DNA of 64,000 nt from the NCBI RefSeq assembly GCF_900101265.1, contig NZ_FMZS01000003.1, forward strand, positions 310,001 to 374,000. The letters are read 5' to 3'. The position numbers and the translations under genes are program-made. The notes beneath the pieces were generated by a model. The model saw only the letters and a program-made list of their open reading frames with translations, ran no database searches and had not been told where the DNA came from. This stretch comes from Massilia sp. PDC64 (GTDB lineage: Bacteria; Pseudomonadota; Gammaproteobacteria; Burkholderiales; Burkholderiaceae_D). Positions 7,348-28,844 of the stretch are shown here, one piece after another; position 1 is the first letter of the stretch; each line of letters opens with the position of its first letter.

Positions 7348-7446
7348 GTTGGTCTCCAATCCGGACTTCGGATGTGACCAATATAGCGCGGCGGACGGAA
7401 CGATTCAGCGATTGAAGCAGTTACTTACATCTGAAACAGATTGTGT

Positions 7447-7884: not shown

Positions 7885-10800
7885 ATGATAGGAACGCTCG
7901 TCCAGGCCGTCGCGGCCAACCGGACACGCCTGCGGCGCGCGCGCAACCTGCGTGCCGGCGGGCGCACGCACGTGGCCGCCCGCCCCGTCGCACAGGGCCC
8001 CGCACCGCTGCGCTGGCTCACGGCCGGCTGCGTGCTGCTGGCCCTGGCGGGCGCCGCGCTCATCGTCGTGCACGCGCGCTGGCTGGCGGCCGCAGGGGAG
8101 GCGCCCGCCGGCGACGGCGCTGCCCGGCTGACGGCCGTGCTGCCCGGCGTCGCGTTCACGGTGCCCGCCACGCCGGGCGTCGCGGTGAGCAATCACGACG
8201 GCACGGCACTACTCATCCTGTCCGGCATGCGCGCCGGACCCATGCAGCGCGTCGACCTGTGCGACCAGCTCGCCGACCGCACCCGTCCCGGCCGCCTGCT
8301 GCCGCTGCGGATCGGCTGGTCGTTCGCGGACGCGGCCGCGCTGGCCGCGCCGCGCAACGTGCTGCTGGCCGGGTCTCCCATGCCGCGCGTGCGCGTCGAC
8401 GGCCGCGCCGGCGCGCCGCTGGACGTGCGCTGGGACGGGCAGGCGCAATGGGTCGGGACCCACGCCCAGGTCGCGCCGGACGGAGAGGGCTGGCTGACGT
8501 GGCGCGACGGCGCGCTGCGGCTGCGTCACCGTACGGTCAGCGCGTGTCCGGCGGCCGGCGAACTCCTCGTGCAGCTCTACCGCCCTGCGCCGGCGCCGCG
8601 CGCGCTGGTGGTCGCGCTGCCGGCGCAGGGCGATCCGGTCGAGACGCTGCTGGTGCCGGGCGACTATCGCGTGCCGTCGTCGCCGGCGCCGGCCATGGAA
8701 GACGAGCAGCTGTTCGCCCAGCTGCAGGCCCGCGGCCTCGTGCGCCTGGGCGCGAACGGCCTGGCCGAGCTGGCCCCGCCGGACCTCGCCGCATGGCGCG
8801 CGGCGGGCAAGACGCCGTGGGATGACGTGACCCTCGACGGCGACGCGCTGCGGCTGCTGGAACGGTTGTATCGCCGCGCCGACGGCGACTTCGTGCGCGA
8901 ACAGGTCCGCATCTTCAATTCCGAGCGGCGGCTCCTCGCGTGGCGGTTACCGGCCGGCGCGACGGCATCCTGGCGCGCTGAGGTGCAGCAGGGCGCGGCC
9001 ACGGTGCCCGTGCCGCTGGCCGACGACATGCCGACGGCCAGTGCCCGCCTGTTCGCCCGGCTGCCGCAGGGCTGGGCGCCGTGGCAGCGGATCGGCGCAT
9101 GGCCGGCGGACGGGGGCGCCGCGCGGCTGCATCTGACCGTACCCGCTGGTACGGGCGGCTTCCGGCTCATGCTGGCCGGCCGCCTGCGCCACGTGACCGG
9201 CGCCCGGTTGCGCGGCGAGCCGCAGCCCGCCTGCGACGGCCGCGCGTGCAATGACCCGGACGAGGTGCAGGTGCTCGACCTGTTGCCCGAGTCCCCGGAC
9301 ATCGTGATCGATGCGGAACCGCTGGCGCAGGGCGCGCTGGCCACGCCGGGCGATGCGCGCTACCGCCACCTCGTCGTGCGCGACGGCCGCCTCGCGTGGC
9401 AGGCGCTGGGTCCCGCCACGTCCCGCCCGTCCGCGCCGCTGGCGGACGTGGTTCTGGCCGACCGCAACGGCATCCCACTGTGGCGCGACGGTGCCCCGAC
9501 GGATGAAGCGCGCGCGGCCGGTCTCGCCACGTTGCTGGGCGTGCGTGCGGGCCAGCCGGGCAGTGTCGCCACCTTGCTCGGCCGGGTCCCCGGCGACCGC
9601 CATGCAGCACGGCTGACCGTGGACCTGCGCCTGCAGACGGCCGCGCAGGCCGCGCTCGACTGCATCGCCATGCGCCGTGGCCACTGGGATGGCCGGCAGT
9701 GCAGCGGAGGCGGCGTCGTGCCGGCCGGGCGCCAGGCGGGCGTCGTCCTGCTCGACACGGAGACGGGCGCGATCCTTGCCGCGGCCGGGGCAGGCATGCC
9801 GGCCGTGACGACCGGGAACTGGCGCGAGGCGCGCGACTTCGACCGCGTCGACCCGGCCGCGAGTCCGTTGCGCCTGCCTGCGCTGCAGCACGACGGCGGC
9901 GCCGAGCGGGCGCCCGGGTCGACGTTCAAGATCGTCAGCGCCCTCGGCCTCGAACTGGCCGCACGGTCCGACCGCCAGCTGGACGCCTTGCTGGACGGCC
10001 TGCCGCTGGCGGGCATCAACGCCACCGCCCACGAACGGGGCTTTGCGTTTCGGACGGATGCGTCCACGTATCCCGTCGACGGCCGCGCGCGCATCACGAA
10101 TTTCCGCGACCAGGGCCTGGACCGGCGCGCCCAGGATGGCCGCCTGGGCCTCGCTCAGGCGCTGACCTACAGCCTGAACACGTGGTTCGCGTGGACGGGA
10201 GAACTGTCCGACCGGAGTCTCCTCGGCCGGCCCGACGGCGGCGTGCCGGATCTGCAGCCGCTGGAGCCCGGTGCGCTGGACCCCGTCCGCCCGATCGTCG
10301 CGATGGCGCGCCGGCTCGGCTTCGGGCAGGCGCTGCGGCTGGACGGCGGCCTGCTGCCGGCCGACACCGCGTGGTCGACGTGGGACGCCCTGCAGACGAC
10401 GCCGGCCGCCATCGACCCCGTCCATACGCGCCACGAGCTGCGCCAGATGGCGATCGGCCTGCGCATGCAGGCGACGCCGCTGCAGATGGCGCTCGTCGCC
10501 GGCGCCGTCGGCCAGGGCAGGGCGATCGTGCCGCACCTGCTGGGAGAGCTCGACGGCAGGGCGGCCGCGCCGTCGAACGGGCCGGACCTGGGCGTGCGCC
10601 TGGACCGCATCCGCGCCGGCATGAAGGGTGTCGTCGACGTGGGCACGGCGTCCGGCGCCTTCCGCGCGCCGGCCCTGGCCGGCATCCGGCGCGGCCTGTC
10701 CGGCAAGACGGGGACGGCGCCGGTCGGTGACGGATCGCTCGCCACGGTCTGGTTCACGGGCTGGCTGGAGCCGCACAGTGTGCCGGGGCAGGACCACCGG

Positions 10801-10908
10801 CTGGCCGTCGCCGTCTTCGTCAGCCGCTCGGAAGCGACGGGGGGCGAGCATGCGGCGCCCGTCGCGGCGGCCGTCCTCGGGGCGCTGGCCGGCAGCACGT
10901 CGAAATAG
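7885..10908 (+). CDS. Large penicillin-binding protein with transpeptidase domain
   Basis: The 1007-residue protein has a basic cytoplasmic start, one membrane helix near residues 48-68, a roughly 550-residue beta-rich periplasmic region of unknown type, and a C-terminal penicillin-binding transpeptidase domain. All three active-site motifs are present: Ser679-T-F-Lys682, Ser763-L-Asn765 and Lys941-T-G. It should cross-link peptidoglycan and bind beta-lactams. Family members usually have 550-750 residues, and I do not see the classic class B dimerisation domain. The ATG at 7885 follows a GGGGGGAG site; longer in-frame starts lack one. It is the first gene of the plus-strand part of the kinase/FHA/SEDS cluster and could pair with the SEDS protein at 25585. 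Confidence 0.9.
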   Translation: MIGTLVQAVAANRTRLRRARNLRAGGRTHVAARPVAQGPAPLRWLTAGCVLLALAGAALIVVHARWLAAAGEAPAGDGAARLTAVLPGVAFTVPATPGVAVSNHDGTALLILSGMRAGPMQRVDLCDQLADRTRPGRLLPLRIGWSFADAAALAAPRNVLLAGSPMPRVRVDGRAGAPLDVRWDGQAQWVGTHAQVAPDGEGWLTWRDGALRLRHRTVSACPAAGELLVQLYRPAPAPRALVVALPAQGDPVETLLVPGDYRVPSSPAPAMEDEQLFAQLQARGLVRLGANGLAELAPPDLAAWRAAGKTPWDDVTLDGDALRLLERLYRRADGDFVREQVRIFNSERRLLAWRLPAGATASWRAEVQQGAATVPVPLADDMPTASARLFARLPQGWAPWQRIGAWPADGGAARLHLTVPAGTGGFRLMLAGRLRHVTGARLRGEPQPACDGRACNDPDEVQVLDLLPESPDIVIDAEPLAQGALATPGDARYRHLVVRDGRLAWQALGPATSRPSAPLADVVLADRNGIPLWRDGAPTDEARAAGLATLLGVRAGQPGSVATLLGRVPGDRHAARLTVDLRLQTAAQAALDCIAMRRGHWDGRQCSGGGVVPAGRQAGVVLLDTETGAILAAAGAGMPAVTTGNWREARDFDRVDPAASPLRLPALQHDGGAERAPGSTFKIVSALGLELAARSDRQLDALLDGLPLAGINATAHERGFAFRTDASTYPVDGRARITNFRDQGLDRRAQDGRLGLAQALTYSLNTWFAWTGELSDRSLLGRPDGGVPDLQPLEPGALDPVRPIVAMARRLGFGQALRLDGGLLPADTAWSTWDALQTTPAAIDPVHTRHELRQMAIGLRMQATPLQMALVAGAVGQGRAIVPHLLGELDGRAAAPSNGPDLGVRLDRIRAGMKGVVDVGTASGAFRAPALAGIRRGLSGKTGTAPVGDGSLATVWFTGWLEPHSVPGQDHRLAVAVFVSRSEATGGEHAAPVAAAVLGALAGSTSK

Positions 10909-11005
10909 GGGGTATTTCCCACTCATCTGCGCGCCTACGAGATGTGGTTCTGTGGCATGATCTGTTACGGTCCTGCCATGAGCGACCGAACATCGAAGAG
11001 GATTT

Positions 11006-12232
11006 ATGCGTTTGCCGGGAACCCGGTACCAGGAACCGGGCTGGGAAGAAGTGCGCAAGTTGCTGGGACAGTGCTCGCTCGCCGCGCTGCGCGGCTTCGA
11101 TGCCGCACATCCTGACCTCGACGGCTACGTCGAATCCATGACGGACCAGCTTCTGGCCCAGCGCCACAGCGCCCGCGCCCGGGCGGCCGGCAACGGTTAT
11201 GGCGACACGGTGTACGAGCTGGCGGTGACGCTCGTCGTCGAGCTGAGCGCCCGCCCGGCCGACTGGGACGCCCTGTGCGCCGCACTGGCGGACGGCCCCG
11301 CTGGCGACGCGCTGCTGCGCAAGAAGGTGAACGACATGTACGCCGTGCTGCGCGACCGGGTCGATGCCGACAATTACCAGGCCGCCTGCGGCCGGCCGTG
11401 CAGTCCGAACCGTATGTACGCGTACCGGATGCTGGACACCGCCTATCACGACGTCGCCCGCCTGTTCGCCAACTGGCGCGCGCACCGGGCCCAGGTGGGC
11501 GCGATCCTCGGTCGCGAGATCGCCGACGGCGCCGAGCCCATCGAAGTGCGCCAGCTGCGCACGATCCACGACTGCCGCGCCGAGTGGATCGTGCGCTGGA
11601 GCGCGACGCTGGAGGAATTCGGCGGCGGCCCCGGTCCGCTGCACACGCGCTCGAAGCGCTTCGCCAGCCTGAAGACGAGCCCGGACCGGATCGCCGCCAT
11701 GCTGCGCGAGATCGGCGATTACGAACAGCTGTCGGCCAACCGCGACGAGGACTGGCTGCAGGACCTGGACGACGCGTCCGCCTGGGTGGAGGATTACTGG
11801 CGCGTGCTGCAGGAATCGGAGCATGCGGCCACGCCGGGCCCGGACCGTATCCTGGAAGCGCAGCAGGATGCGCTCGACGTGACGCCGCCGGAACCCGATC
11901 CGGCGCCCGCAGAGGACACGCCGGACCCGCGGCTGGAAACGCTGGCGCTGAGCGTTTCACTGCCCCCCGGCTATGTTGCGCAGGCGCCGGTGGATGGCCT
12001 GCTGGCGGCGGAAGGGCTGCCGGTGGGCCTGGCCGTGTACGCGAAGCTGCTGGGCCCCGACGACGCGTCGTACCCGGACGCCTGGCGCGACCCGGCCACC
12101 AGCGCGCTGCCGACGATGCAGCAGCTGGCGGCGCTGGCCGAGGTGTCGCTGCCCACGTTGCGCAAGCGGCGCGACGCGGCGATCGCCCGGATGACGGCCG
12201 CCTTTGACACGAAGCGAGGAAGCGATGCATAG
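11006..12232 (+). CDS. Unknown protein with sigma-region-4-like C-terminus
   Basis: I do not recognise this 408-residue soluble protein. Most of it is helical and rich in Arg, Ala and acidic residues, with two Cys near the middle (CGRPCSPN). A Pro/Asp-rich linker (about residues 290-315) precedes a last domain whose helix MQQLAALAEVSLPTLRKRRD reads like the helix-turn-helix of sigma factor region 4 or an ECF-type regulator. A GAAGAGG site precedes the ATG. The gene overlaps the next one by eight bases. A DNA-binding or transcription role is only a guess; it may simply be a cluster-specific scaffold. Confidence 0.7.
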   Translation: MRLPGTRYQEPGWEEVRKLLGQCSLAALRGFDAAHPDLDGYVESMTDQLLAQRHSARARAAGNGYGDTVYELAVTLVVELSARPADWDALCAALADGPAGDALLRKKVNDMYAVLRDRVDADNYQAACGRPCSPNRMYAYRMLDTAYHDVARLFANWRAHRAQVGAILGREIADGAEPIEVRQLRTIHDCRAEWIVRWSATLEEFGGGPGPLHTRSKRFASLKTSPDRIAAMLREIGDYEQLSANRDEDWLQDLDDASAWVEDYWRVLQESEHAATPGPDRILEAQQDALDVTPPEPDPAPAEDTPDPRLETLALSVSLPPGYVAQAPVDGLLAAEGLPVGLAVYAKLLGPDDASYPDAWRDPATSALPTMQQLAALAEVSLPTLRKRRDAAIARMTAAFDTKRGSDA

Positions 12233-12788
12233 CAACGAGAACACCGCCCGCGGGCTGCAGGAAGCCCTGCTGCTGGCCCGCCGCAAGGACGGCGACCGGT
12301 TGATGCTGGACGATGCCACGCTGGCCGCCGCGCTGGACGGCAGCCGGCCGCTGACGGCCGGCGAGCGGGCCGCACTGCAGGCGTCGCCGCTGACGGCGCG
12401 CCGGCTGCGGCATCTCGCGCTCGCGCGGCGCACGGCCGCATCGACCGCCTGGCGCGGCAGCCGCGGCGCGCTGCGGGCCGCGAGCACCGGCACGCTCGAC
12501 GCGGTCGTGACGGACGACGGCTGGTGGACGCTGCACTTCGTCCCCGCCGGCGACGGCTGGCGCGCGATCCTGCAACTGGCGCCGCAGGCCCCGTTCGCGG
12601 AAGCGCTGCTCGTCGCGCGCGCGCCGCTGCGCGTCGTGGACGGCGCCGGCGCCGAGCTGCTCACCGGCCAGCTCGATGCGGACGGCGAATGCGAAGCCGC
12701 GTGGCCGTTCGCCGCCGCACCTCATGACCACCTGCAGGCGCATGGCGCCCGTTTCGCCGTCGAACCGCTGGAGGCGGACACACCATGA
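12225..12788 (+). CDS. Unknown cluster protein, N-terminus reminiscent of anti-sigma factors
   Basis: This 187-residue protein has no membrane helix or signal peptide. Residues 25-60 (ALDGSRPLTAGERAAL followed by an Arg-rich helix) resemble the start of anti-sigma factors but lack their His/Cys zinc ligands. The C-terminal 90 residues are beta-rich (WWTLHFVPAGDGWRAIL). The ATG at 12225 was chosen because GCGAGGAA lies just upstream; an earlier ATG at 12204 has no site. It overlaps both neighbours by a few bases, so it is translated as part of the same operon. The function is unknown. Confidence 0.65.
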   Translation: MHSNENTARGLQEALLLARRKDGDRLMLDDATLAAALDGSRPLTAGERAALQASPLTARRLRHLALARRTAASTAWRGSRGALRAASTGTLDAVVTDDGWWTLHFVPAGDGWRAILQLAPQAPFAEALLVARAPLRVVDGAGAELLTGQLDADGECEAAWPFAAAPHDHLQAHGARFAVEPLEADTP

Positions 12789-13810
12789 TCCCATTCTTCA
12801 AGCGCGCCGCGCCCGTCCATGACGCCTGCACCCTCGGCCGCACGGCCGTGGCGCTGCCGCTGTCGCCCGGCTGCGGCGCGCCGCCGGGCTGCCCCGTCGT
12901 CATCGTCGACGCGGACGGCCGCCCGCGCCGCGCCACAACCCCGGCCGGGAAAAAGGTCGAGCTGCGTCCCGGCGAACTCGCCTGGGCATTCCACCCCGGT
13001 CCGTACACGATCGACGTGGTCCCGTACGCCCAGGCGCCCGAGATCGGCCTGCGCACGACGTTCGCCATCGACCCGCAAGACCCCGCGCCCGCCGGCAAGC
13101 GCTTCGACCTGTACCTGGCGGCCGAAGCGGATGGCCGCGTCGACCTGGCCGCGCTGGGAGCGAAAGTGGAAAGTGCCGTGCGCGGCGCGCTGGAGCAGGG
13201 CGCGCTGGACCTGCCGCCGTGCGTGGACATCGACGAGTGGAACGCGTTCCGCCAGGGCCTGAACCGCCTGCTGTACCTGCGCTTCGGCCTCACCGTGGAC
13301 GATTGCGTGCCCGTCGAACTGGAAGGCGTCGACTATGCGGCGCAACTGGCCGCGCGTGCGGTCGGCACGGCTGCACCTGCGCCCGTCGCGGAAAAAGTCG
13401 TGCCGGACCTGGCCGACGCGAAGGCCCTGCGCCGGCTGTTCCTCGAACTGCCTTGCCTGATGTGCGGCCTGCGCCTCGGCGCGCTGCCGAACGGGCAGGA
13501 CCAGTTCCGCCAGCAGCAGGCCCTGCTGCAACGGCTGGACCGCCTGTCCGTCGAGATCACGACGATGCCGGCCCTCGTGCTGGCCGCGCCCGGTCAGCCG
13601 CTCGCGCTGGACGAGCAGCTGCGCCGCATGCGCCACAGCCGCCGCGCCACCGTCGCCCTGGACGAGGCGTGGGCGCTGCTGGCCCGTCTCGAAGGCGCGC
13701 AAGGCGAGCGCCTGGCCGCGCTGTACGACGAGGCCGAGCGCATCGTCGCCAACCTCGAAGCCGATTGCGCCGGCCGGCGCGCGGCGAAGCACGTCGCGGA
13801 GGCAGCATGA
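12785..13810 (+). CDS. Unknown protein, possible divergent SPFH-like domain
   Basis: The 341-residue protein is not identified with certainty. Its first 170 residues (a GxLAWAFHPGPYTIDVVPYA-like stretch, then alternating strands and an amphipathic helix) follow the strand pattern seen in the SPFH domain of the protein encoded at 14838, so it may be a shorter relative. The second half is helical with two conserved-looking Cys (LPCLMCGLRL). There is no signal peptide. It starts inside the end of the preceding gene (ATGA-type overlap) and ends four bases into the Lon-like gene. Possible roles are membrane-associated scaffolding or complex assembly; that is inference. Confidence 0.6.
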   Translation: MIPFFKRAAPVHDACTLGRTAVALPLSPGCGAPPGCPVVIVDADGRPRRATTPAGKKVELRPGELAWAFHPGPYTIDVVPYAQAPEIGLRTTFAIDPQDPAPAGKRFDLYLAAEADGRVDLAALGAKVESAVRGALEQGALDLPPCVDIDEWNAFRQGLNRLLYLRFGLTVDDCVPVELEGVDYAAQLAARAVGTAAPAPVAEKVVPDLADAKALRRLFLELPCLMCGLRLGALPNGQDQFRQQQALLQRLDRLSVEITTMPALVLAAPGQPLALDEQLRRMRHSRRATVALDEAWALLARLEGAQGERLAALYDEAERIVANLEADCAGRRAAKHVAEAA

Positions 13811-14802
13811 ACAGTCCCGCGCAAGCGATCTGCCGCACGCGCCAGCCGGACGGCACGCTGCTCACCGTGACGGCCACGCGGCGCGAGCGCGCGGGCCGCG
13901 CGGACGTCAAGTGCACGGTGCCGGGCGACGCGCAACTGGCGGAACGCCTGCAGCAGGTGGTGCGCCTCGCGCGCCACACGGAAGCGAAGATCGACAGCCG
14001 CGACCAGGTCGTGCTCAGCGTCGACCGCACGCCCGCGGGACGGGACTGCGAACTGGCCTTCGTGCTGGCCGACCGTCTCGTGCGCGGCGTCTGGCACGGG
14101 CGGGGCGACATCGTCGCCAACGGCTGGTCCGATGCGTGGCAACTGGGCCGCGTGGACGGTCACGACGTGGCGGATGCGTCGCCGGACGCGCTGCTGGGCG
14201 GCCCGGACGGCCTGGCGCACCTGGGCCAGCTGGACGGCCATCCGGACCCCGGCGCGCGCGTGTCGAGCGCCCGCGCATGGTTCCCGCTGCACAGCGGCGG
14301 CGACGGCGACGGCCTCGGCTGGGTCGAGGTGAGCGTCCATCCGCTGGAGGGCGAACGAGCGGACGAGGAACAGACGATCGCCGTGCCGGGTGCGGATGCG
14401 GCGCGACAGCTGGCCGTGCGCCAGGCGCTGGCCGGTGCCCGTCACTTCGACGGCCGCGGCCTCGGGCGCTGGCGCACGACGGTCCGCTTTTCCGACACCG
14501 CCTTCGCGGGCCGCTCGTACGAACTGGCCCTCGTGCTGGCCGACCGTATCGCGCGGGGCCGCGAATTCATCCCGCGCGCCCGCCTGCTGGCGACGGGTTG
14601 TTCGGATGCGTGGCATGCGGGCCGCGTGGACGGCGTCGACGGCCTTGCGCCCAAATGCGCGCTGCTGCTGCGCGAAGCCGGGCCGGGCGACCGCATCGTG
14701 CTGCCGCATGCATGGCGCGACGGCTTGCCCGCCGGGTTCGCGGACGACGTCCGTGCGCGCGGCGCGAGCGTGGCGTGCGTGGAGCGGATCGGGATCATTT
14801 GA
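13807..14802 (+). CDS. Protein with two Lon-protease-like (S16) domains in tandem
   Basis: The 331-residue protein is an internal duplication. Both halves contain a L-A-x-V-L-A-D-R helix, an x-A-T/N-G strand and a GRVDG loop, the order found in the Lon proteolytic domain. In the second half Ser237 (AGRSYELALVLAD) and Lys283 (DGLAPK) sit 46 residues apart with an LLATG strand between them, close to the Ser679/Lys722 dyad of E. coli Lon. In the first half Asp80 replaces the Ser and the Lys is lost. There is no ATPase domain. It could be a small peptidase or a binding module derived from one. The ATG at 13807 has GGAGGCAGC before it and overlaps the preceding gene by four bases. Confidence 0.6.
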   Translation: MNSPAQAICRTRQPDGTLLTVTATRRERAGRADVKCTVPGDAQLAERLQQVVRLARHTEAKIDSRDQVVLSVDRTPAGRDCELAFVLADRLVRGVWHGRGDIVANGWSDAWQLGRVDGHDVADASPDALLGGPDGLAHLGQLDGHPDPGARVSSARAWFPLHSGGDGDGLGWVEVSVHPLEGERADEEQTIAVPGADAARQLAVRQALAGARHFDGRGLGRWRTTVRFSDTAFAGRSYELALVLADRIARGREFIPRARLLATGCSDAWHAGRVDGVDGLAPKCALLLREAGPGDRIVLPHAWRDGLPAGFADDVRARGASVACVERIGII

Positions 14803-14837
14803 GGTAGGCTTGCGGCGTGGCCGGGAAGGAGTCGATG

Positions 14838-16805
14838 ATGTTGCGGATGTTCGGATTGGGTGGGGCGAAGTGCCCCCGCTGTTCTCACGGGAATAGCGGG
14901 ACCGACGGCTATTGCGCCGCCTGCGGCCTGATGCTCGGCACGCCGCGCAATGTGCCCGTGCTGGTCGAGAACCGCTGGGTGCCGGGCCCGGACGAACTGG
15001 CGGTGTTCTTCGGCGTGCGCGCGCTGTCCGGCGTGTTCGTCAAGACCCTGCGCGTGCCTGCCACCGCGCGGGCCTACATCCTGCAGGGCGACCAGGCGAC
15101 CGAGGTGCCGCAGGGCGAGTACGAGATCGAAGGTTTTTTCACGCGCCTGAACCACCTGCTGCGCGACCAGCATGCGGAAATCCTCGTCACGAGAAGCAGC
15201 GCGCTGCCCATCGAATTCGAGCTGGACGACCTGGTCAGCGCCGAGCACCTGGCCGTGTCGGCCCGTCTCAGCCTATCCGTGCGGATCGAGAGCGTGCCCG
15301 CGTTCGCGCGCCATTTCATGACGATGCCCGGCACCGTCAAGGCCGACCACCTGCGCGACCTGCTGCAGCAGCCGGTGCGCCAGCTGGCGGGCGAATTCGT
15401 CGCGGCCCGCTCGCTGCGCGAGATGGCGGGCCGGCGCGAGCTGCGCCCCGAACTGGACCAGCACCTGCAGGGTGGTCTTGCCACCCTGCTCGCCGATTAC
15501 GGCCTCGCCATCGTGCGGGTGGAGACGCTGTCCCTGCGCCACGACCGCTTCGACGCCAACCGTTCCCGCGTCGGCAGCCTGTGGCTCGCCGTGGACGAGC
15601 AGCGGGTCAAGGTCGAGCACGCGCGCCAGCTCGACGAACTCTATACGGACGACGAATGGCGCCGCATCGCGCGCGAGGAAAGCGAGGCGCGTCTCGCGCA
15701 CCGGCGCGCGGCACTGCGCCAGGAGGCCAGCATCGAGCGTGCGGAAACGAGCCTGCAGAACGCCGAGCGTGCGCACGCGATCCGCGCACGCGAGATCGAG
15801 CTGTATGGCCGCATCGTGGAGTCCCGCTCGCGCAAGCACGCGATCGAGCGGGGCGCGCAAGACCTCGTCGCGGAACTGGAACACGAACTCGCGCAGAAAC
15901 GGGGCGCGCGCGCGGACCAGGAGACGGAATGGGCGCACCTGCGCGAACTGGCCGCCGTGCGCATGCGCGAAGAGGTGGCGCTGGCGCGCCAGGATGCGGC
16001 GCAGGCGCGCACGGTCGCCGCGCAGCGCTTCACGCACCAGCTGCTGCAACAGCAGATCCGCAACAAGATCGAGCAGGCGCGCGGCATCGAGGATGCGGCC
16101 CGTCAGCGCGCGGAACTGGCGCGCCTGCACGCGGCCGAGGACGACGCGGCACGGCGTGTGCGTGAGGTCGAAGAGCAGGCACATGGGGCGCGGCTGCGGG
16201 CGGCGGAGCGGGAAGAATCCGTCGACGCGGAAGCCGTGCGCCAGCGCGTGGAAGCGCTGCGCCGCGACGGCGCGCAGGCGGACGCGCTGGCCCAGCACGA
16301 AAAGCTGCTCCGCACCATCGAGGCCGATGCGGCGCTGCAGCGGGTCGCGCTGGACGGCGAGGAAGCGCGCGCCGTGCTGCAAGCCGAACTGGTCGCCGCC
16401 GAACGCGCACACGAACTGCGGCGCATGGAGACGCTGGGCGCCGTGGACGACACGACGAAACTGGTGCTGGCCGGCGAAACCAACGCGGCGCTGCTGGCGG
16501 ACGTGCTGAAGGCCCGCACGCAGGCCGGCATGAGCGCGGAGCAGCTGGCGGCGCTGACGTCGTCGCGCCTCGCCGACGAACAGGTCGAACGCGAGCGCGC
16601 GCGGCGCGACGCGGAGCTGGAACGCGAACGGCGCCACCAGCTGGAACTGCTGGCGCTGCAGAACGACGTGAACAAGACGGCGCTGGCCACGCAGGCGCAG
16701 CTGGGCAGTGCGCTGGTCGCGGGGGCGGCCTGCCGCCACGCGGGCGCCCAGGCCGGCGACCGGTTCTGCGGGACGTGCGGCGCGCCGCTGCCGGCGCGGG
16801 GATGA
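14838..16805 (+). CDS. SPFH-domain coiled-coil protein with zinc ribbons at both ends
   Basis: The 655-residue protein opens with a zinc ribbon (CPRCSHGN...CAACG), followed by an SPFH/band-7 domain (about residues 40-240). Next come some 330 residues of Glu/Arg/Ala-rich coiled coil and a terminal CxxC-type ribbon (FCGTCGAPLP, with an upstream Cys and His). This matches the stomatin/prohibitin-like family with zinc ribbons (YdjI-like, once called virion-core-like), whose members assemble on membranes. The ATG at 14838 lies six bases after AAGGAG; the ATG at 14835 and a GTG at 14817 are alternatives. The stop overlaps the start of the kinase gene, so kinase and scaffold are made together. It may organise the cluster proteins at the membrane. 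Confidence 0.8.
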   Translation: MLRMFGLGGAKCPRCSHGNSGTDGYCAACGLMLGTPRNVPVLVENRWVPGPDELAVFFGVRALSGVFVKTLRVPATARAYILQGDQATEVPQGEYEIEGFFTRLNHLLRDQHAEILVTRSSALPIEFELDDLVSAEHLAVSARLSLSVRIESVPAFARHFMTMPGTVKADHLRDLLQQPVRQLAGEFVAARSLREMAGRRELRPELDQHLQGGLATLLADYGLAIVRVETLSLRHDRFDANRSRVGSLWLAVDEQRVKVEHARQLDELYTDDEWRRIAREESEARLAHRRAALRQEASIERAETSLQNAERAHAIRAREIELYGRIVESRSRKHAIERGAQDLVAELEHELAQKRGARADQETEWAHLRELAAVRMREEVALARQDAAQARTVAAQRFTHQLLQQQIRNKIEQARGIEDAARQRAELARLHAAEDDAARRVREVEEQAHGARLRAAEREESVDAEAVRQRVEALRRDGAQADALAQHEKLLRTIEADAALQRVALDGEEARAVLQAELVAAERAHELRRMETLGAVDDTTKLVLAGETNAALLADVLKARTQAGMSAEQLAALTSSRLADEQVERERARRDAELERERRHQLELLALQNDVNKTALATQAQLGSALVAGAACRHAGAQAGDRFCGTCGAPLPARG

Positions 16806-19006: not shown

Positions 19007-19078
19007 GCAGCACGATACGCAGCGGAAAATTCGGCACCGGCGCATAATGAATCGCACTCTGCAAACGAGGAGGTGATC

Positions 19079-19183
19079 ATGCGTATTCCCAAGGATATCC
19101 AGATCCCGTTCATCGTGCTGTCGCTGGAAGCCGTCCTGCTGACCGGCGCGGCGCTCATCTTCCTGGTCCTGCGGCCGGGTTGA
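19079..19183 (+). CDS. 34-residue single-pass membrane peptide
   Basis: A very strong ribosome site (GAGGAGGTGATC) stands directly before the ATG at 19079. The peptide starts MRIPKDIQIPF and continues as one hydrophobic helix of about 20 residues, ending in RPG. It follows the kinase-FGE gene by 72 bases on the same strand and is the last plus-strand gene of this part of the cluster. Very small membrane proteins often regulate a larger partner; which one here is unknown. Its shortness makes it easy to miss, but the ribosome site and helix make it credible. Confidence 0.65.
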   Translation: MRIPKDIQIPFIVLSLEAVLLTGAALIFLVLRPG

Positions 19184-19198
19184 TCCTGGACGAAAGCG

Positions 19199-20689
19199 TC
19201 AGGCGTCGAGCAGGCGGGCGTGCGCGCGCCGGCGTTCGCCCGTGCGTTCGGTCTGGTCTTCCGGACGCGGGCTCGCCGCGAACCGTACGCGGCCCGTGAA
19301 GCGGGCGAGGCGGTCCAGCAAGGTAGCTGGGCCGATCGGGGTTTCCTGGCCGCTGGCCGGGTCGAGGTGCCAGAAGCCGCCGTCGCGGTGGAACAGCACC
19401 GGCATGCCGGCCGCGCGCGGCAGGGCGCCCGTACCCGCGGCCGCCGGCTCGGGCGCGACGCCGGGCGCCAGCAGCACGAAACACTCCGCGGCGCCGCCGG
19501 CGTCCACGCGGTGCAGGGTCAGTGCATGCGCGTGCAGCGCCGTCACGACGAACGTCACGACGCCGCGTATGCTGGCCGTCAATTCGATGCGCATCCCGAG
19601 GCGCAGGGGGACGGGCACGTGCTTGCCGGGCCAGACGCCGTCCAGCAGAAGGCCGTAGCGCGACACGTCCTCGATCTCGAAACCGCCGCGCGCGGGCCGG
19701 ATGACGGCGTGGCGCGCGGACAGCCGGCGCGTGAGACCATCCCGGACGGGCCCGTGTTCGTCATGGTGTTCCAGGAGCAGGTCGGCCTCGGCGCCGACGG
19801 ATTCATGGCGGCCCAGCACGCATTCGTCGAGCGCGAACAGGCGCACGTGGCGCTGGGCGCCGGCGTCCGGTTCCGCGTACACGAGGCAGGCGGTGCTCGC
19901 CGGGCACGGATGCGCCGCCCGTTCGGCCGGCAGGTCGATCTCGATCAGGTCCTCGTCCCACGCGATGGTGGGCAGGCCGACGGCCACTTTCCCGCCGGCA
20001 CTCCCGTCGAGGTGCAGCTGGGCGATGGAGGCGTTACGGGCCTGGATGTCGATGTCCATCGCGCCGCCGCCGGCCAGGCCCTGCACGCGGGCGATGGCGG
20101 CATCGTCGGCGCTGATGCGCACGTTCTTGTGCGTCGACAGATAGGTCTGGTGGATCTCGCCCAGCGACGCGTCCGGACGGGGCACGAGCAGCACGAGCGT
20201 CGCCACCCAGGTGCGTGCCGGGTGGCGCGCATGGATCTCCAGGTCGACTCGGTACTGGCCGTGTTCCCGTCCGCGCGACGAGAATTCCACGAACACGGGC
20301 CGCCAGTCGCCGCGCAAGGTGCGCACGAACTGCAGCCGGCCGGCGCCCATCGGCAGCAGCTTCGATTCGAGCAGCAGGGTCAGTTGCGGGGGCGCGTCGT
20401 CCGGCATCCCCCGCAATTCCAGCTTGATGGCCTGGCGGCCGCCGGCCGCGCGCGGGTCGAAGCCGCTCACGTGCAGGTGCGGGCGGGGCGGCTGGGCATG
20501 GATGGCTGCCGGCATCCTGGCCGGCGTCTCCGCGCGCACGCGTTTCAGCATCTCGAAGCTGGAGCCGAGCACGTCGACAGTTCCCGGCACGGGCGCCGCC
20601 GGCTGGCGATGGCCGTGCGCGCACTGCGCCTCGCCCGGGGCGACCCAGACGGTGCAATGCGGGTGATCGGGACTGCTGCAGCGCTTCAT
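19199..20689 (-). CDS. FHA-domain protein with N-terminal zinc-ribbon-like motif
   Basis: The 496-residue protein starts with a short Cys/His cluster (CSSPDHPHC, then CAHGH). A beta-rich middle region leads to an FHA domain at about residues 285-385, shown by CVLGRHE, SARHAVI and a GFEIEDVSRYGLLLDG stretch. FHA domains bind phosphothreonine, so this is a probable reader or substrate of the two Ser/Thr kinases of the cluster. The C-terminal 110 residues are unassigned. It lies 114 bases downstream of the PP2C gene on the same strand. Its 3-prime end faces the small membrane-peptide gene, 15 bases away. Confidence 0.85.
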   Translation of the reverse strand: MKRCSSPDHPHCTVWVAPGEAQCAHGHRQPAAPVPGTVDVLGSSFEMLKRVRAETPARMPAAIHAQPPRPHLHVSGFDPRAAGGRQAIKLELRGMPDDAPPQLTLLLESKLLPMGAGRLQFVRTLRGDWRPVFVEFSSRGREHGQYRVDLEIHARHPARTWVATLVLLVPRPDASLGEIHQTYLSTHKNVRISADDAAIARVQGLAGGGAMDIDIQARNASIAQLHLDGSAGGKVAVGLPTIAWDEDLIEIDLPAERAAHPCPASTACLVYAEPDAGAQRHVRLFALDECVLGRHESVGAEADLLLEHHDEHGPVRDGLTRRLSARHAVIRPARGGFEIEDVSRYGLLLDGVWPGKHVPVPLRLGMRIELTASIRGVVTFVVTALHAHALTLHRVDAGGAAECFVLLAPGVAPEPAAAGTGALPRAAGMPVLFHRDGGFWHLDPASGQETPIGPATLLDRLARFTGRVRFAASPRPEDQTERTGERRRAHARLLDA

Positions 20690-20803
20690 GGGCGGTTATT
20701 GGTTCGGAGCATGGGGTCTCAGCTTACGCGATTGTAGCGTAGCGCGGCGCGCGGATTTCATAGTTGAGCAAGACTTTTTTCCAAGATGCATTATTTACCA
20801 CAG

Positions 20804-21793: not shown

Positions 21794-21828
21794 ACTCTAA
21801 CCGGAAATGCCAAAAGACCAAGCTTCGA

Positions 21829-23082
21829 TCAGATGGGCTTTTGCCGTCTACCCGTCAGCAACACGGCCGCGTTGACGAGGACGCACGCGCCGGCCGCCGC
21901 CATCGCGAACCGCACGCCCCAGGCGTCCGCCACGCGGCCCCAGAACAGGCTGCCGGCCGTGTAGCCCCCCGCCATCACGACGAGATAGATCGCCAGGGTG
22001 CGCGCCCGCACGTCGGCCGGGAACGACAGTTGCGCGGCCGCGTTCAGCGTGGACACGACGGCCGACCAGGCCATACCGCCGAACACGATCAGCGGGATGA
22101 GCAGCGCGAGCGTATGCAGGAATGGCATGATGGCCAGCATGGCACCGTACACGGCCAGTGCGCCGGCCAGGATATTGGTCTTGTCGACGCGGGCGCGGAT
22201 CGCGGGCAGGCAGAACGCGGCCAGTACGGCGCCGGCGCCCAGGCTGCCCATCAGGGTGCCGAACACGCTGGCGTCCATGCGCAATACGTCGCGCACGAAC
22301 ACGGGCAGCAGGCCCGCGAAGGCGATGGTGGCGAAGAACACGGTGGCCACGTTGCGCAGGATGCGGCGGTAGCGCGGGCAGCCGAACGCCGTCCGGATGC
22401 CTTCGCGCAGGCGCGCGCCATAGCCCGCGCAGGGCTTCACGTGCGTGCGGTCGTCGCGCCACCAGGCGCGGTAGATGGCAAGCAGGCCCACGAACGAGAT
22501 CGCGTTGAGGAGGAACAGCGGGCCGGGACCGATCCACTTGAACAGGACGCCGCCCAACGCCGGCCCGATGATCGCGGCCGTGTTGTACGACAGGTTGTTG
22601 AGCGTCGCCGCGGCCTCCACTTCGTCCGGTTCGACGAGTCCCGACATCGCCGCCTGCCAGGCGGGCCACATGAATGCGGAGCCGCAGCCGAGGCAGAACA
22701 GCACCATCAGCACGACGACGTGCGGCGCGTGCCCGGACGCCACCAGCGCAGCCAGCGTGCACGCGCAGCCGGCCATGAACAGGTTGCAGAGGAACAGGAA
22801 CTTCGGGCGGTGCACGGCGTCGGCCACGACACCCGCGAACAGCGCGAACAGGAAGATCGGGATGTACGTGCAGGTCTGCACGAGCGTCGTCGTGGAGGCC
22901 GAGTGCGAGCTGGACGCGATCAGCCAGGCCGACGCGAACGTCTGGATCCACGTGCCGAGGTTCGAGACCAGGTTGGCGCACCACAGGTGCCGGTAGCGCG
23001 CATGGCGCAGCGGTTGCGTCAGCGGGACTTTGCGCCGTACCTGATTACCCGCCTGCGCCGGGGTGAAGCTGGATGTCGTCAT
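21829..23082 (-). CDS. MFS transporter, MFS_3 / EntS-like
   Basis: The 417-residue protein has twelve hydrophobic segments and the pattern of the enterobactin-exporter-like MFS_3 group: NLVSNLGTWIQ in helix 1 and FALFAGVVADAVHRPKFL around the helix 2-3 loop. It probably exports a small molecule. It sits inside the kinase/FHA/SEDS cluster, just upstream of the PP2C gene, but nothing in its sequence links it to cell-wall signalling, so it may be a bystander. It is divergent from the GNAT gene, with 120 bases between them. Confidence 0.85.
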   Translation of the reverse strand: MTTSSFTPAQAGNQVRRKVPLTQPLRHARYRHLWCANLVSNLGTWIQTFASAWLIASSSHSASTTTLVQTCTYIPIFLFALFAGVVADAVHRPKFLFLCNLFMAGCACTLAALVASGHAPHVVVLMVLFCLGCGSAFMWPAWQAAMSGLVEPDEVEAAATLNNLSYNTAAIIGPALGGVLFKWIGPGPLFLLNAISFVGLLAIYRAWWRDDRTHVKPCAGYGARLREGIRTAFGCPRYRRILRNVATVFFATIAFAGLLPVFVRDVLRMDASVFGTLMGSLGAGAVLAAFCLPAIRARVDKTNILAGALAVYGAMLAIMPFLHTLALLIPLIVFGGMAWSAVVSTLNAAAQLSFPADVRARTLAIYLVVMAGGYTAGSLFWGRVADAWGVRFAMAAAGACVLVNAAVLLTGRRQKPI

Positions 23083-23202
23083 CGGGCCAGTCTACGGGCC
23101 CGGCCCGGCCGGGTCAACGCGGCGGCCGGGGTGATCGCGCCGTTGCGGGTTTTTCCCAACGTGACGTTTCGACAAGCTGCCGGCCGTGCTATCTTGTCGA
23201 CC

Positions 23203-23673
23203 ATGCAAATACGCTTACTGGAACCTGCCGACATCCCGGCCGCCGCCGCCTTGCTGCGCCGCTCTGCCGAAGCCTTCTTCCTGCACGAATCCGCGCCGGA
23301 AGACGCCACCGACTTCCTCGCCCAGCACGACGCGGCGGGCCTGCGTCGCAACCTGGACGCCGGCTTCGTCTACCACGCGGCCATCGTCGACGGCGCGCTG
23401 GCCGGCTTCATCGGCGTGCGCGGCGGCACGCACGTGTTCCACCTGTTCGTCGATGCCGCGTTCCAGCGGCGCGGCATCGCGCGGGCGCTGTGGGACGTGG
23501 CACGCGCGGCGGCGCTCATGCCCGGGCATCCGGGATTCTTCACGGTGAACGCGTCGAATTTCGCCGTGCCGTTCTACGAATCGCTCGGCTTCGAGCGCAC
23601 GGCGCCCATGCAGGTCGACAAGGTACGTTACAACCCCATGCGCCTGTCAGTGCCGCTCGTCGGTGCGGCGTAG
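23203..23673 (+). CDS. GNAT-family N-acetyltransferase
   Basis: The 156-residue protein has the GNAT acetyl-CoA-binding motif (LFVDAAFQRRGIARALW) and the late FYESLGFERT segment typical of the fold. It should transfer an acetyl group to an amine of an unknown substrate. ATG 23203 (MQIRLLEPADIPAAA) matches normal GNAT starts. The last 27 bases overlap tail-to-tail with the SH3b gene on the other strand, so the two stops are buried inside each other, which is uncommon. It has no obvious link to the surrounding cluster. Confidence 0.85.
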   Translation: MQIRLLEPADIPAAAALLRRSAEAFFLHESAPEDATDFLAQHDAAGLRRNLDAGFVYHAAIVDGALAGFIGVRGGTHVFHLFVDAAFQRRGIARALWDVARAAALMPGHPGFFTVNASNFAVPFYESLGFERTAPMQVDKVRYNPMRLSVPLVGAA

Positions 23674-24066
23674 CCACAGGCTGCTCGCCCAGCCTTCCAC
23701 GTCGCTGCCCTCGACGCGCACGCGCCACCAGTCGCCGTCCGTCGCCCCCGTCGTGCTGACGATCGTCCCGGCCGGGAGCACGCGCACGCGGGTGGCGCGC
23801 ACGCCGTGGTCCGCGCGCAGGTTCAGGTCGTCGACGACGCGGTAGCGGGCGCCGGCCGCGGGGCCGGCCACGGCCGGCGCCACCGGCACGGGCGCAGGCG
23901 TGACCGGCAGCAGGGACGCGAACAGCAGGCCGAAGCCGAGCGTCCCGCCGGCCACGACCGCGAGCGCGCGCAGGTTCGGCCGGCGCCACCAGGCGCGCGG
24001 CGTGCACCATGCGGCCAGCACGAGCGTCGTCGCCAGCGCGCCGGCCCACACGAGCCAGGGAGGCAT
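23647..24066 (-). CDS. Membrane protein with bacterial SH3 domain
   Basis: This 139-residue protein has two hydrophobic helices (about residues 2-20 and 35-52) followed by a bacterial SH3 domain (LNLRADHGVRATRVRVLPAGT, ending in GWASSLWL). SH3b domains of this kind bind peptidoglycan or peptides, which fits a wall-synthesis cluster. The ATG at 24066 follows a GAGGTGATC site; a longer in-frame ATG at 24084 overlaps the upstream gene. It is the last gene of the minus-strand kinase-SEDS-FHA operon, ten bases after the FHA-like gene. Its 3-prime end overlaps the GNAT gene by 27 bases. Confidence 0.75.
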   Translation of the reverse strand: MPPWLVWAGALATTLVLAAWCTPRAWWRRPNLRALAVVAGGTLGFGLLFASLLPVTPAPVPVAPAVAGPAAGARYRVVDDLNLRADHGVRATRVRVLPAGTIVSTTGATDGDWWRVRVEGSDVEGWASSLWLRRTDERH

Positions 24067-24076
24067 GGCGATCACC

Positions 24077-25615
24077 TCACGCATCGAAGCGCAGCACGTA
24101 ATGGCCCGCGACGAGGTGGTGCCCGGCCGGCAGGCGGTACGGCTGTTCCGGCGTGGCCGCATCGATGGCGGCGACGAACGCCAGCTTCTCGTCCAGGTGG
24201 TACAAGGCCTGCGTGGGCGACAGGCGCGCGATCAGCCAGCCGTCCGGTCCCGCTTCGAAGCTGAACGCGTCGCGCGACAGGCCGAGGCGGTCGGCGCTCG
24301 ACGGCGGCGTGCCCGCCGCATTCTTCAGGAAGGCCGGGGAATCCAGTACGCGCAGCGCGGCGAGCATCGGGGCCCCGCGTCCGAACGTGAAGCGCGCGCC
24401 GGGCGCCACCGGCAGGGCCGGCGGTTGCGGCAGCACGAGCAGCGCGCAGTAGCGGTCGGCCAGCGCGGGCGCGCAGGCGGCCAGTTCCACGCGCGCGCCG
24501 TCGACGGGGCTGAACGAGGCCGGCACGGCGATCCGTTCGCGGCCGGCCGGCGTGATCGCCTGCAGCTGGTCCTGGTCGTCGACGGCGAAGCCGATGACGG
24601 TGCCGGACGGTTGCGCGACCGGGACGAATGCGCGGTTCAGGTTGATCTCCAGTGCCTGCGCGCCCGTCTCGCGGTAGCGCGACAATCGCGGCAGCGCGAG
24701 GGCGGCCAGGGTCACGCGCTGGCGCGCGACGGGGGCATACGTCGCGTCGACGGTCTGCGGTGCCGGGGTGCGTGCCAGCGGGACGGCCGTCAGTTCGGGG
24801 TCGGGCGCCGCGCGCGGTTTCCAGACGGCGGGGCGCGCGGAGGCGGGTTTGGCCGCGGCTTTGACCGGTTCGGGACGGGCGGCGGCCGGCGTCACGCGCA
24901 GCAGCAGGCGCAGCGCTGCGCCGGTGGCGTCGACGGCGCCGCGGCGCGACCTGATCGTCCAGTAGCCCGCGGCCGCGTCGTAGCTGCAATCGAAGGCGTC
25001 CTTCGGGCGCACCTGCACTTCCAGCGGCGACTCCGGCCCGTCGTTGATGAGAAGGACGGCGCCTTCCGCGCCGAACGGCCAGCCCGGCGCGGCGTACGTC
25101 GCTTCATGGGCGTCGTGGCCGATGAGGGTGAGGCGCTGGTTCGGGTAGATCGGGCAGACGGTTTTCCAGACAGCGCTGTCGCGCGACACGCTGACCGTGT
25201 ATTGTACGGCTTCCCCTGGCGCGGGCAGGTAGACCGCGTGGCCGAACTTCACTTCGACCTCGCCCGGTTCGAGGCGGTCGGCGCCGACGACGTGGTATCG
25301 GACGTCGTCGCCCTGCAGCAGGTCGCCGAAATCCTTGCGGTGCAGCGCGGAGAGCGACTCCGCGAGGTCGCGCACGCGGGCGCCGCGCGTGAGATGGCGA
25401 TCGTCGTCGACCTCTTCCTGCGGCAGCATCAACGTGATGTGGGAAAAGCAGCGGGTGGCGGCCCGTCCGCGTTGCTCGCGCGGCGAGCGTTCCAGCAGGT
25501 CGCGCAGCAGCGGACGGCGCGCGAACAGCGCCAGTCCGGGCGCCTGCCAGATGGCGTGGGCGTCGAAGACGTCGTTGATCTTGCCTAGGGCTTCATGTTG
25601 GACGTAGACCGGCAT
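24077..25615 (-). CDS. Divergent FHA-like protein
   Basis: The 512-residue protein has no membrane helix. Its N-terminal 180 residues form an alpha/beta region I do not recognise (FSHITLMLPQEEV...DVRYHVVGADRLEPGEVEVKFG), then come a Pro/Ala-rich linker and a C-terminal segment that reads like FHA (FTFGRGAP...LGLSRDAFSF...GWLIARLSP). This arrangement loosely recalls actinobacterial FhaA, which has a DUF3662 region before its FHA domain; the likeness is only of layout. A GAGGAG site supports ATG 25615, which lies inside the last 31 bases of the SEDS gene, so the two are translationally coupled. It is the probable phospho-reader of this operon. Confidence 0.65.
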   Translation of the reverse strand: MPVYVQHEALGKINDVFDAHAIWQAPGLALFARRPLLRDLLERSPREQRGRAATRCFSHITLMLPQEEVDDDRHLTRGARVRDLAESLSALHRKDFGDLLQGDDVRYHVVGADRLEPGEVEVKFGHAVYLPAPGEAVQYTVSVSRDSAVWKTVCPIYPNQRLTLIGHDAHEATYAAPGWPFGAEGAVLLINDGPESPLEVQVRPKDAFDCSYDAAAGYWTIRSRRGAVDATGAALRLLLRVTPAAARPEPVKAAAKPASARPAVWKPRAAPDPELTAVPLARTPAPQTVDATYAPVARQRVTLAALALPRLSRYRETGAQALEINLNRAFVPVAQPSGTVIGFAVDDQDQLQAITPAGRERIAVPASFSPVDGARVELAACAPALADRYCALLVLPQPPALPVAPGARFTFGRGAPMLAALRVLDSPAFLKNAAGTPPSSADRLGLSRDAFSFEAGPDGWLIARLSPTQALYHLDEKLAFVAAIDAATPEQPYRLPAGHHLVAGHYVLRFDA

Positions 25616-27897: not shown

Positions 27898-28844
27898 GCG
27901 GCGCTCCGTAGCGGATACGCGGCGGCCGCGCCGGCGGCGGCGCGGGCGATCAGGCGGCTGATCTCGAGCGCATGACGGGGACGCGCTTCCGGGCGGGGCG
28001 CCAGCAGTGCCCGCAGCAGGGCCACCGGCGCATCGTCGGCGCAGGCGTGGCCGGCGAACAATGCGACTTCGTCCGGCGCGAGGATCGCGGGTGCGTGCAG
28101 CGCGGCGGCGCCGGCCGTCCCGTGGGTCCGGTACGCGTCCGCGCAGGCGGCGCAATAGCGCAGCGGGATGCCGGTGACGAGCCAGTAGAGCAGGGCGCCC
28201 AGGGCGAAATAATCGGTGCGCGTGTCGGTCCGGTAGCGACCGGCTTCATCCGGGAAAAATTGTTCCGGTGCCTGCCACGCCGCCGTGCCGGCGTACGAAT
28301 GCGCGGCGCTGTCCTGCAGGGCGCGATTGGTGCCGAAGTCCGCGAGCTTGAGCGTGTTGCCGGGCGCATCGACGAGCAGGTTGGCCGGTTTCAGGTCCAG
28401 GTAGCGCCAGCCGTATTGATGGACTTTCGCCAGTGCGGCATTGACTTGCGCCGTCCACGCGAGTGCCTGCCCGATTCCCGGACGGTCGCCGCGCGTGCGC
28501 AGCGTTGCCAGGTGCGCGGCCAGGTCGCCGTCCAGGAGCTCCAGCGCCAGTGCGGGCTGGCCGTCGTGTTCGCCGCTGTCGAGCAGGCGCACGATGTGGC
28601 GCTGGTCCCACGGCTGCAGGCCGCGCAGGAAGGCGATCTCGGCGTCGAAGCTGGCGCGCCAGAGGGCCCGTTGCGGCGGCAGCGCAAGGTCCATCTGCGC
28701 GCGGTTGACGAGTTTCACGGCGGCCGGTGTGCCGTCCAGCACGGATTGCGCCCGCCACACCTGGCCGTAGCTGGAGCCGCCCAGCGGCGCCTGCAGGCGC
28801 CAGGCACCCGCCGTCAACGTGATGATGTCGCCTGCTTCGACCAT
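27894..28844 (-). CDS. Ser/Thr protein kinase with altered HRD motif
   Basis: The 316-residue protein is a soluble kinase with no membrane helix. Visible motifs are the glycine loop LGGSSYGQVW, the VAIK-like AAVKLV, the catalytic loop YLDLKPANLL (Asp150, Lys152), Asp169-Phe-Gly and the APE segment WQAPEQF. The usual His-Arg before the catalytic Asp is Tyr-Leu, so it is a non-RD kinase that may not need activation-loop phosphorylation. Two close Cys (YCAACADAY) lie in the C-lobe. It is the first gene of the minus-strand operon kinase-SEDS-FHA-SH3b and overlaps the SEDS gene by four bases. PP2C at 20804 is the probable counter-enzyme. Confidence 0.88.
   Translation of the reverse strand: MVEAGDIITLTAGAWRLQAPLGGSSYGQVWRAQSVLDGTPAAVKLVNRAQMDLALPPQRALWRASFDAEIAFLRGLQPWDQRHIVRLLDSGEHDGQPALALELLDGDLAAHLATLRTRGDRPGIGQALAWTAQVNAALAKVHQYGWRYLDLKPANLLVDAPGNTLKLADFGTNRALQDSAAHSYAGTAAWQAPEQFFPDEAGRYRTDTRTDYFALGALLYWLVTGIPLRYCAACADAYRTHGTAGAAALHAPAILAPDEVALFAGHACADDAPVALLRALLAPRPEARPRHALEISRLIARAAAGAAAAYPLRSAA

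Follow-up and report, generated by a model that had tools for sequence, protein, structure and literature searches.

A putative third SEDS-PBP peptidoglycan synthase encoded with a Ser/Thr phosphorylation module in Massilia and its relatives

We analysed a stretch of 64,000 nucleotides from Massilia sp. PDC64 (hereafter, the window), in which positions 7885 to 28844 encode a penicillin-binding protein (PBP), a SEDS protein, two Ser/Thr kinases, a PP2C phosphatase, an FHA protein and an SPFH protein. We read this locus as a third, dedicated SEDS-PBP peptidoglycan synthase accompanied by a cytosolic module for Ser/Thr phosphorylation and scaffolding that would have the synthase as one of its outputs, and give this reading a probability of roughly 0.55. 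Reading of the open frames resolves the interval into two convergent gene sets, and its two ends are exact gene starts, that of the PBP on the plus strand and that of the second kinase, Kin2, on the minus strand. The plus strand carries, in order, PBP, B408, C187, D341, Lon331, SPFH, KinFGE (to 19006) and pep34; the minus strand, from the far end, carries Kin2, SEDS, M512, SH3b and MFS, followed by PP2C and FHA (to 19199), with a plus-strand GNAT gene beside MFS. Several neighbouring frames share a few bases (Kin2-SEDS, 4; SEDS-M512, 31; C187-D341, 4; D341-Lon331, 4; SPFH-KinFGE, 4), which suggests two operons. We counted 14 of these genes as the core set. A preliminary description of this DNA, made from the sequence alone, had placed one PBP, two Ser/Thr kinases, a PP2C phosphatase, an FHA protein and a SEDS protein here, and this inventory is borne out by Pfam and NCBIfam matches, by motifs and by the FHA matches of relatives.

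The SEDS protein (P0012; 25585..27897, minus strand) is predicted to have, besides a first helix and two beta domains (residues ~35-145 and 202-289), a SEDS membrane domain that contains D640. It matches Pfam FTSW_RODA_SPOVE with an E-value of 3.2e-17 (63.0 bits, against a curated cut-off of 26.4), and the same model is matched by all 24 aligned SEDS members. The genome of PDC64 contains three PF01098 matches, of 338, 329 and, for the cluster SEDS, 66 bits, the two strong ones adjoining frames recognised by eye as MurD-like and PBP2-like. Its own FtsW and RodA are thus retained, making the cluster protein a third SEDS; two PF01098 matches were found in each of the genomes G237, G065 and G061, which lack the cluster SEDS. 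A tree of 33 proteins separates the cluster SEDS, together with its relatives from G406, Rhodobacter and G1060, from FtsW and RodA as a clade of their own with 100/100 support, a placement that carries a long-branch warning; three proteins marked FtsW? by a motif rule (L115, L116 and L133) nevertheless group with RodA in this tree, built from a MAFFT alignment. When a profile of 16 cluster SEDS sequences was compared with eight housekeeping FtsW and RodA proteins (hhalign probability 96.3, E 1.6e-9, 240 columns), D640, the equivalent of which is also invariant in the SEDS proteins of G406 and Rhodobacter, aligned opposite the Asp of the HTDF motif. We take this Asp to be FtsW D297. In Escherichia coli FtsW, D297 is reported as the catalytic aspartate (PMC8765783).

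The predicted model of the SEDS protein (pLDDT 74.9, falling below 50 at residues 635-642 and 715-730; pTM 0.74) shows the first helix, the two beta domains and the membrane domain, and a Foldseek search of the PDB returned FtsW or RodA at ranks 1-4 (probability 1.00, E 1.4e-4 to 4.5e-3, TM-score by target 0.60-0.67). The predicted fold therefore supports the SEDS call, which the preliminary description had proposed to check against structure; the SEDS profile found no match among PDB sequences. Judging by the arginine-rich N-terminus, the beta domains probably lie outside the cytoplasm. The idea that they are FHA domains found no significant support: their comparison with the FHA protein and M512 was not significant by hhalign, and the FHA-fold family Yop-YscD_cpl was matched weakly by 1 of the 24 members (E 0.18).

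The PBP (P0001; 7885..10908, plus strand; 1007 codons) has a single hydrophobic segment at residues 42-70 as its N-terminal membrane anchor, a presumably extracytoplasmic region of ~500 residues with no Pfam match and a C-terminal transpeptidase domain (Pfam Transpeptidase, 2.5e-15). The motifs S679-T-F-K, S763-L-N and K941-T-G are invariant in 7/7 PBP sequences, and SxxK, SxN and KTG are likewise kept in the PBP relatives outside the clade. The Pfam match and the motifs point to a PBP, and the two matches of its profile among PDB sequences are both transpeptidases.

The two genes are inherited together. Among 294 genomes of the family, 67 carry both (PBP counted at E < 1e-50), 226 carry neither, a single one (G282, 81% complete) carries the PBP only and none carries the SEDS only. 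The PBP search matched 120 of these genomes, 52 of which (E > 1e-9, profile columns 922-1070 only) were taken to contain housekeeping PBPs and were not counted; the SEDS and PBP samples of 294 genomes were judged identical from their equal size and handles. SEDS and PBP share a contig in 58 of the 67 genomes, and 57 of these 58 pairs are convergent, 56 of them lying 15,975-34,294 bases apart. The exceptions to this spacing are G265, in which the genes are 0.85 Mb apart and the second half of the locus is intact elsewhere, and G312, in which they are 0.6 Mb apart and the PBP profile matches in two pieces (C1 5589706-5591394 and 6001379-6002797) with ~0.4 Mb between them. These large genome searches scored 2-5 candidates per genome, and absences hold within that depth.

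Natural subtractions bear on the same question. G237, a genome of the same genus (C1:1417000-1456999; L172, L173), contains Kin2, M512, SH3b, GNAT, PP2C, FHA, pep34, KinFGE, SPFH, Lon331, D341, C187 and B408, arranged as usual; M512 follows ~80 bases after Kin2 with no SEDS between them, the usual outer neighbour stands past B408 with no PBP, and neither SEDS nor PBP was found elsewhere in the genome. The two missing places are ~15 kb apart with their flanking genes in place, and loss is a simpler reading than original absence, because 26 of the 27 same-genus genomes listed have the SEDS. G065 (C113:36000-75999; L174, L175) keeps PP2C, FHA, pep34, KinFGE and SPFH; SEDS and PBP are absent genome-wide, and Kin2, M512, SH3b, Lon331, D341, C187 and B408 are absent within the 40 kb read. 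That G237 lacks both genes, together with the distribution in the family and the adjacency of the two genes in Alphaproteobacteria described below, argues strongly that SEDS and PBP form one functional unit; judging by G237 and the remnant in G065, the phospho-module is separable from it. Since the other genes persist in G237 and a five-gene core in G065, this module has a further role and probably other targets, and we therefore read the synthase as one of its outputs.

The cluster is conserved in the Massilia/Telluria/Pseudoduganella group. P0012 matches 36 of 61 relatives (its own genome, 35/36 of the same genus and 0/24 of other families), and the 67 matching family genomes belong to 5 of 44 genera. 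The 26 loci among the named matches belong to Massilia, Telluria and Pseudoduganella apart from a strain listed under Herbaspirillum, a Burkholderiaceae bin and a distantly related Rhodobacter, and no plasmid copy of the cluster SEDS was found. Beyond the family, M512 matches 3/369 genomes of the class (its own, G406 and G537) and 2/398 of the phylum, a broader SEDS profile (E 1e-20) matches 3/398 genomes of the phylum (its own, G012 and G1060), and the Rhodobacter SEDS matches 3/149 genomes in the family of G1060. A SEDS-M512 pair with overlapping frames is found in G406, where the SEDS is 31% identical to P0012 and a fragment of a PBP lies at the end of a contig; on a different contig from that pair (C65:13623-17311; L176), a PP2C relative (49%) stands beside a kinase-FGE relative (36%). 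In Rhodobacter sp. NTK016B (L086, 5232-10420), the PBP and SEDS genes overlap, and in G1060 they adjoin. By hhalign, the L086 SEDS is homologous to that of the cluster over nearly its full length (probability 99.6, E 4.2e-24, 38-748) and the PBP, with complete motifs, over 539-963 (98.1, E 9.5e-14). Unlike the cluster, the L086 and G1060 pairs have other large neighbours, with no kinase or FHA protein among the proteins scanned there, and four proteins neighbouring the L086 pair gave no hhalign match. In Alphaproteobacteria, PBP-SEDS pairs belonging to this third family (L086, 5232-10420, and L163, 8917-16691) stand beside large proteins without a Pfam match.

The remaining core proteins include two kinases, a phosphatase and a candidate phospho-reader. 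KinFGE (P0007; 16802..19006, plus strand) has a SHOCT-like start, a Ser/Thr kinase domain (Pfam Pkinase, 1.2e-34) and an FGE-sulfatase-like domain (1.6e-59), and Kin2 (P0013; 27894..28844, minus strand) is a Ser/Thr kinase (Pkinase, 1.5e-27) whose stop overlaps the SEDS start; neither has a PASTA domain or a membrane segment. The PP2C phosphatase (P0009; 20804..21793, minus strand), also without a membrane helix, matches Pfam at 0.0028 and NCBIfam Stp1_PP2C at 4.5e-9, both below the cut-offs. The window copy of the FHA protein (19199..20689, minus strand) has no Pfam match and its profile none among PDB sequences; PF00498 is matched by 6/10 aligned members (best 1.3e-6), and R294, S324, R326 and H327 are invariant in 10/10. 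M512 (24077..25615, minus strand), predicted to be cytosolic, has an N-terminal domain, a disordered linker and a C-terminal domain that is tentatively FHA-like: the first-ranked Foldseek match of this part is the Ki67 FHA (probability 1.00, E 0.010; none under 0.001), a weak likeness, and Pfam gave no FHA match in 17 members, so that the FHA-like protein of the preliminary description is retained in this qualified form. The M512 profile found no match among PDB sequences. An FhaA-type identity, considered for the N-terminal domain of M512, was rejected, there being no Pfam match in the 17 members and none among the 50 Foldseek matches listed. The SPFH protein (14835..16805, plus strand) carries zinc ribbons at its N- and C-terminus, the only features seen in the window copy, and Band_7 is matched by 2/10 members (best 2.3e-7).

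Kin2, SEDS, M512, SH3b, FHA and KinFGE are present in 23/23 named loci, and both halves of the locus stand together in 9/10 joined loci (the exception being G265) and in 7/7 close loci, in which Kin2 falls outside the stretch read; the three sets share some genomes. The recurrence of the core genes shows that the locus is more than a chance gathering, and the gene-neighbourhood comparison proposed earlier finds the genes kept together in relatives. Four loci with the SEDS (L080, L081, L084 and G271) have no PP2C. In the mechanism we propose, the SEDS protein would polymerise lipid II through a pocket around D640 and the PBP, with a single N-terminal helix as its anchor, would cross-link the resulting strand; the large and presumably extracytoplasmic extra domains of both would set the place or time of action. 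On the cytosolic side, both kinases would phosphorylate partners, phospho-threonine would be recognised by the FHA protein and possibly also by M512, PP2C would reset the state and the SPFH protein would cluster the complex. Control of the synthase by the kinases is suggested by linkage and frame overlap. Given this basis, and the persistence of the module in G237 and G065, the earlier interpretation of a phospho-regulated dedicated wall synthase is supported in part: the extra SEDS-PBP pair and its tight co-inheritance speak for it, whereas its strong, exclusively dedicated form is at odds with G237, with G065 and with the PP2C-less loci.

Several observations weigh against the synthase-and-module reading. 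SEDS and PBP sit in different operons, G237 and G065 keep signalling genes although they lack the synthase, and G271 has no P0009 match genome-wide though the synthase is present. In the profile alignment, the cluster SEDS has other residues in place of the EELG glutamates and of the PDLG motif that FtsW and RodA carry. A Pfam scan of the PBP up to E 1 gave Transpeptidase only, with no dimerisation or pedestal domain typical of class B, and for this reason we call it a class-B-like PBP and not FtsI or PBP2. The cluster PBP profile misses the Rhodobacter and G1060 PBPs by hmmsearch, and only hhalign and blastp join them. No kinase was found beside the SEDS in G406, L086 or G1060, where not every frame was scanned.

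A different explanation takes the locus to be basically a system for signalling and membrane scaffolding (PP2C-FHA-pep34-KinFGE-SPFH) that serves its own function, the SEDS-PBP pair being an optional tenant that it does not control. It would account for G065, which retains just these five genes, for G237, which retains everything but the synthase, for the PP2C and kinase-FGE relatives of G406 on a contig other than that of the SEDS-M512 pair, and for the FHA relative, with one internal stop, in G061, the only one of 10 other family genomes without the cluster SEDS to have this protein. The SEDS and Kin2 frames overlap, however, 56/58 same-contig SEDS-PBP pairs keep their convergent arrangement at a distance below 35 kb, and G065 lacks both outer blocks, that of the SEDS and that of the PBP, in the 40 kb read; we consider an uncontrolled tenant unlikely, if a serious contender. 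A backup synthase, switched on under wall stress when the main enzymes are blocked, has precedent in the antibiotic-induced additional SEDS proteins of Listeria (FtsW2, RodA3; PMC6686043) and Enterococcus (FtsW2, RodA2; PMC12724132). These proteins likewise exceed the usual two, and those of Enterococcus prefer distinct bPBPs, but they are Gram-positive, close to FtsW and RodA and under two-component control, and the accessible portions of the two reports mention no linkage to kinase, FHA or SPFH genes. The near-universal presence in the clade is silent on induction and the linked genes here form a phospho-module; such a backup, which is compatible with our preferred synthase-and-module reading, strikes us as improbable as the explanation of the locus. 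The product of the pair might also differ from ordinary peptidoglycan, or the pair might build wall at a particular site recognised by the large extra domains, as the strong divergence of the SEDS (66 versus 329-338 bits), its extra beta domains and the ~500 PBP residues without a Pfam match would allow. The invariance of the three PBP motifs and the SEDS aspartate points instead to ordinary chemistry, and the chance of such a specialised output is slim.

The closest parallel in inventory is the mycobacterial and actinobacterial fhaA-fhaB-pstP-rodA-pbpA-pknA-pknB locus, which comprises seven protein classes (PMC6554272, as far as the excerpt of that report extends). The preliminary description saw a one-for-one correspondence, and this holds for the class counts (two kinases, PP2C, two FHA proteins with the second tentative here, SEDS and PBP) and fails for domain architecture and order. 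The actinobacterial locus has a PASTA-type membrane kinase and a membrane PP2C cotranscribed with rodA and pbpA, whereas the cluster has none of these; it is arranged in two convergent operons with SEDS and PBP on opposite strands, in another order, it has a divergent SEDS and a PBP with large extra domains, it includes additional SPFH, FGE and further genes, and it adds to FtsW and RodA where these are already present. Membership in the actinobacterial locus by homology was therefore rejected, no PASTA domain and no membrane kinase or phosphatase being present, in agreement with the earlier remark that the cluster shows no sequence-level sign of being that locus. Transfer of a pstP-rodA-pbpA-pkn locus from Actinobacteria would explain the same seven classes, yet in addition to the missing PASTA domain, the kinases and PP2C without membrane helices and the other order, the SEDS is nearest to the proteobacterial kin found here (actinobacterial proteins were not directly compared), and this origin is scarcely credible. 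Parts of the combination are known separately from other phyla: kinase and PP2C genes adjoin rodA in Lactococcus and Streptococcus, as kinase, PP2C and SEDS genes stand together here, and Chlamydiae have kinases fused to an FGE-type domain (DUF323/NirV), as noted in 2005 (PMC1262709), the part of that report available to us mentioning no FHA, SPFH or extra PBP. The phosphorylation genes of the cluster have a further parallel. In type VI secretion, the PpkA-PppA-Fha threonine-phosphorylation module likewise unites a kinase, a PP2C phosphatase and an FHA reader in one locus; the cluster differs in that no secretion-apparatus gene was recognised among the genes of the interval.

The other members of the locus are less readily assigned. 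The small membrane peptide pep34 (19079..19183, plus strand), a predicted single-helix protein of 34 residues between KinFGE and FHA, has a long Shine-Dalgarno-like stretch, GAGGAGGTGATC, directly before its start. It occurs in 21/23 named, 7/10 joined and 7/7 close loci; G237 and G065 also have it, whereas L080, L084, G148, G271 and G285 lack it. It remains near FHA even where many kb of other genes separate FHA from KinFGE; its conservation indicates that it belongs with the core. The genes in this variable gap (by eye, pirin, OsmC-type, porin and regulator) were rejected as members because their frames differ among eight genomes. The SH3b membrane protein (23647..24066, minus strand) has an SH3 domain match of 2e-9. 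The SPFH protein, the SH3b protein and the small membrane peptide named as extra members earlier all stand. The Lon-like protein named with them is unproven: Lon331 (13807..14802, plus strand) has invariant Ser237 and Lys283 in 9/9 members, none of which matches Pfam S16. B408 (11006..12232) has a strictly conserved N-terminus, MRLPGTRYQE, and by eye a helix-turn-helix-like C-terminus, and both B408 and Lon331 gave meaningless matches only among PDB sequences. C187 (12225..12788) is by dN/dS the fastest-changing core gene in most comparisons and D341 (12785..13810) is SPFH-like by eye, all three being on the plus strand; B408, C187, D341, Lon331 and M512 have no confident Pfam match. The dN/dS ratios of the core genes range from 0.02 to 0.42, leaving out the comparison of D341 with L062 (1.018), a locus that ends before D341. 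The MFS transporter (21829..23082, minus strand; 12/23 named loci) and the GNAT acetyltransferase (23203..23673, plus strand; 18/23) inside the interval are frequent yet dispensable neighbours and not core genes. Neighbours outside Kin2 and PBP are likewise common to many relatives, so that the block limits rest on function and not on loss of synteny; one of them, a WXXGXW-repeat protein (6784-7359), adjoins the PBP end and is an outer neighbour in several relatives too. The sole tRNA found in the window is a tRNA-Leu (taa) at 41444-41530. An anti-phage defence system was also considered and rejected: of 10 proteins compared with PADLOC models only the two kinases match, to many generic kinase models, the SEDS has no plasmid copy and the clade pattern is vertical and near-universal.

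Most bacteria have two SEDS proteins, and additional ones are described as little known (PMC12724132, in the part accessible to us). Our literature searches, in which the lists on other SEDS proteins were covered in part, found no paper on this locus or on such a combination in a Gram-negative group. We tentatively propose, at somewhat under even odds, that Proteobacteria possess a third SEDS-PBP synthase family with large extra domains on both proteins, that the Massilia clade has placed it under a eukaryotic-like kinase/FHA/PP2C/SPFH relay as an independently evolved Gram-negative counterpart of actinobacterial phospho-controlled wall synthesis, and that G237 is a natural double knock-out of precisely this synthase. 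If so, an extra Gram-negative SEDS-PBP synthase would be tied by gene order to a full set of kinase, phosphatase and phospho-reader, and a natural genome lacking only the synthase would be at hand in G237. It would then be testable whether Ser/Thr phosphorylation can control wall synthesis in Gram-negative bacteria and whether the arrangement seen here evolved independently of the actinobacterial one.

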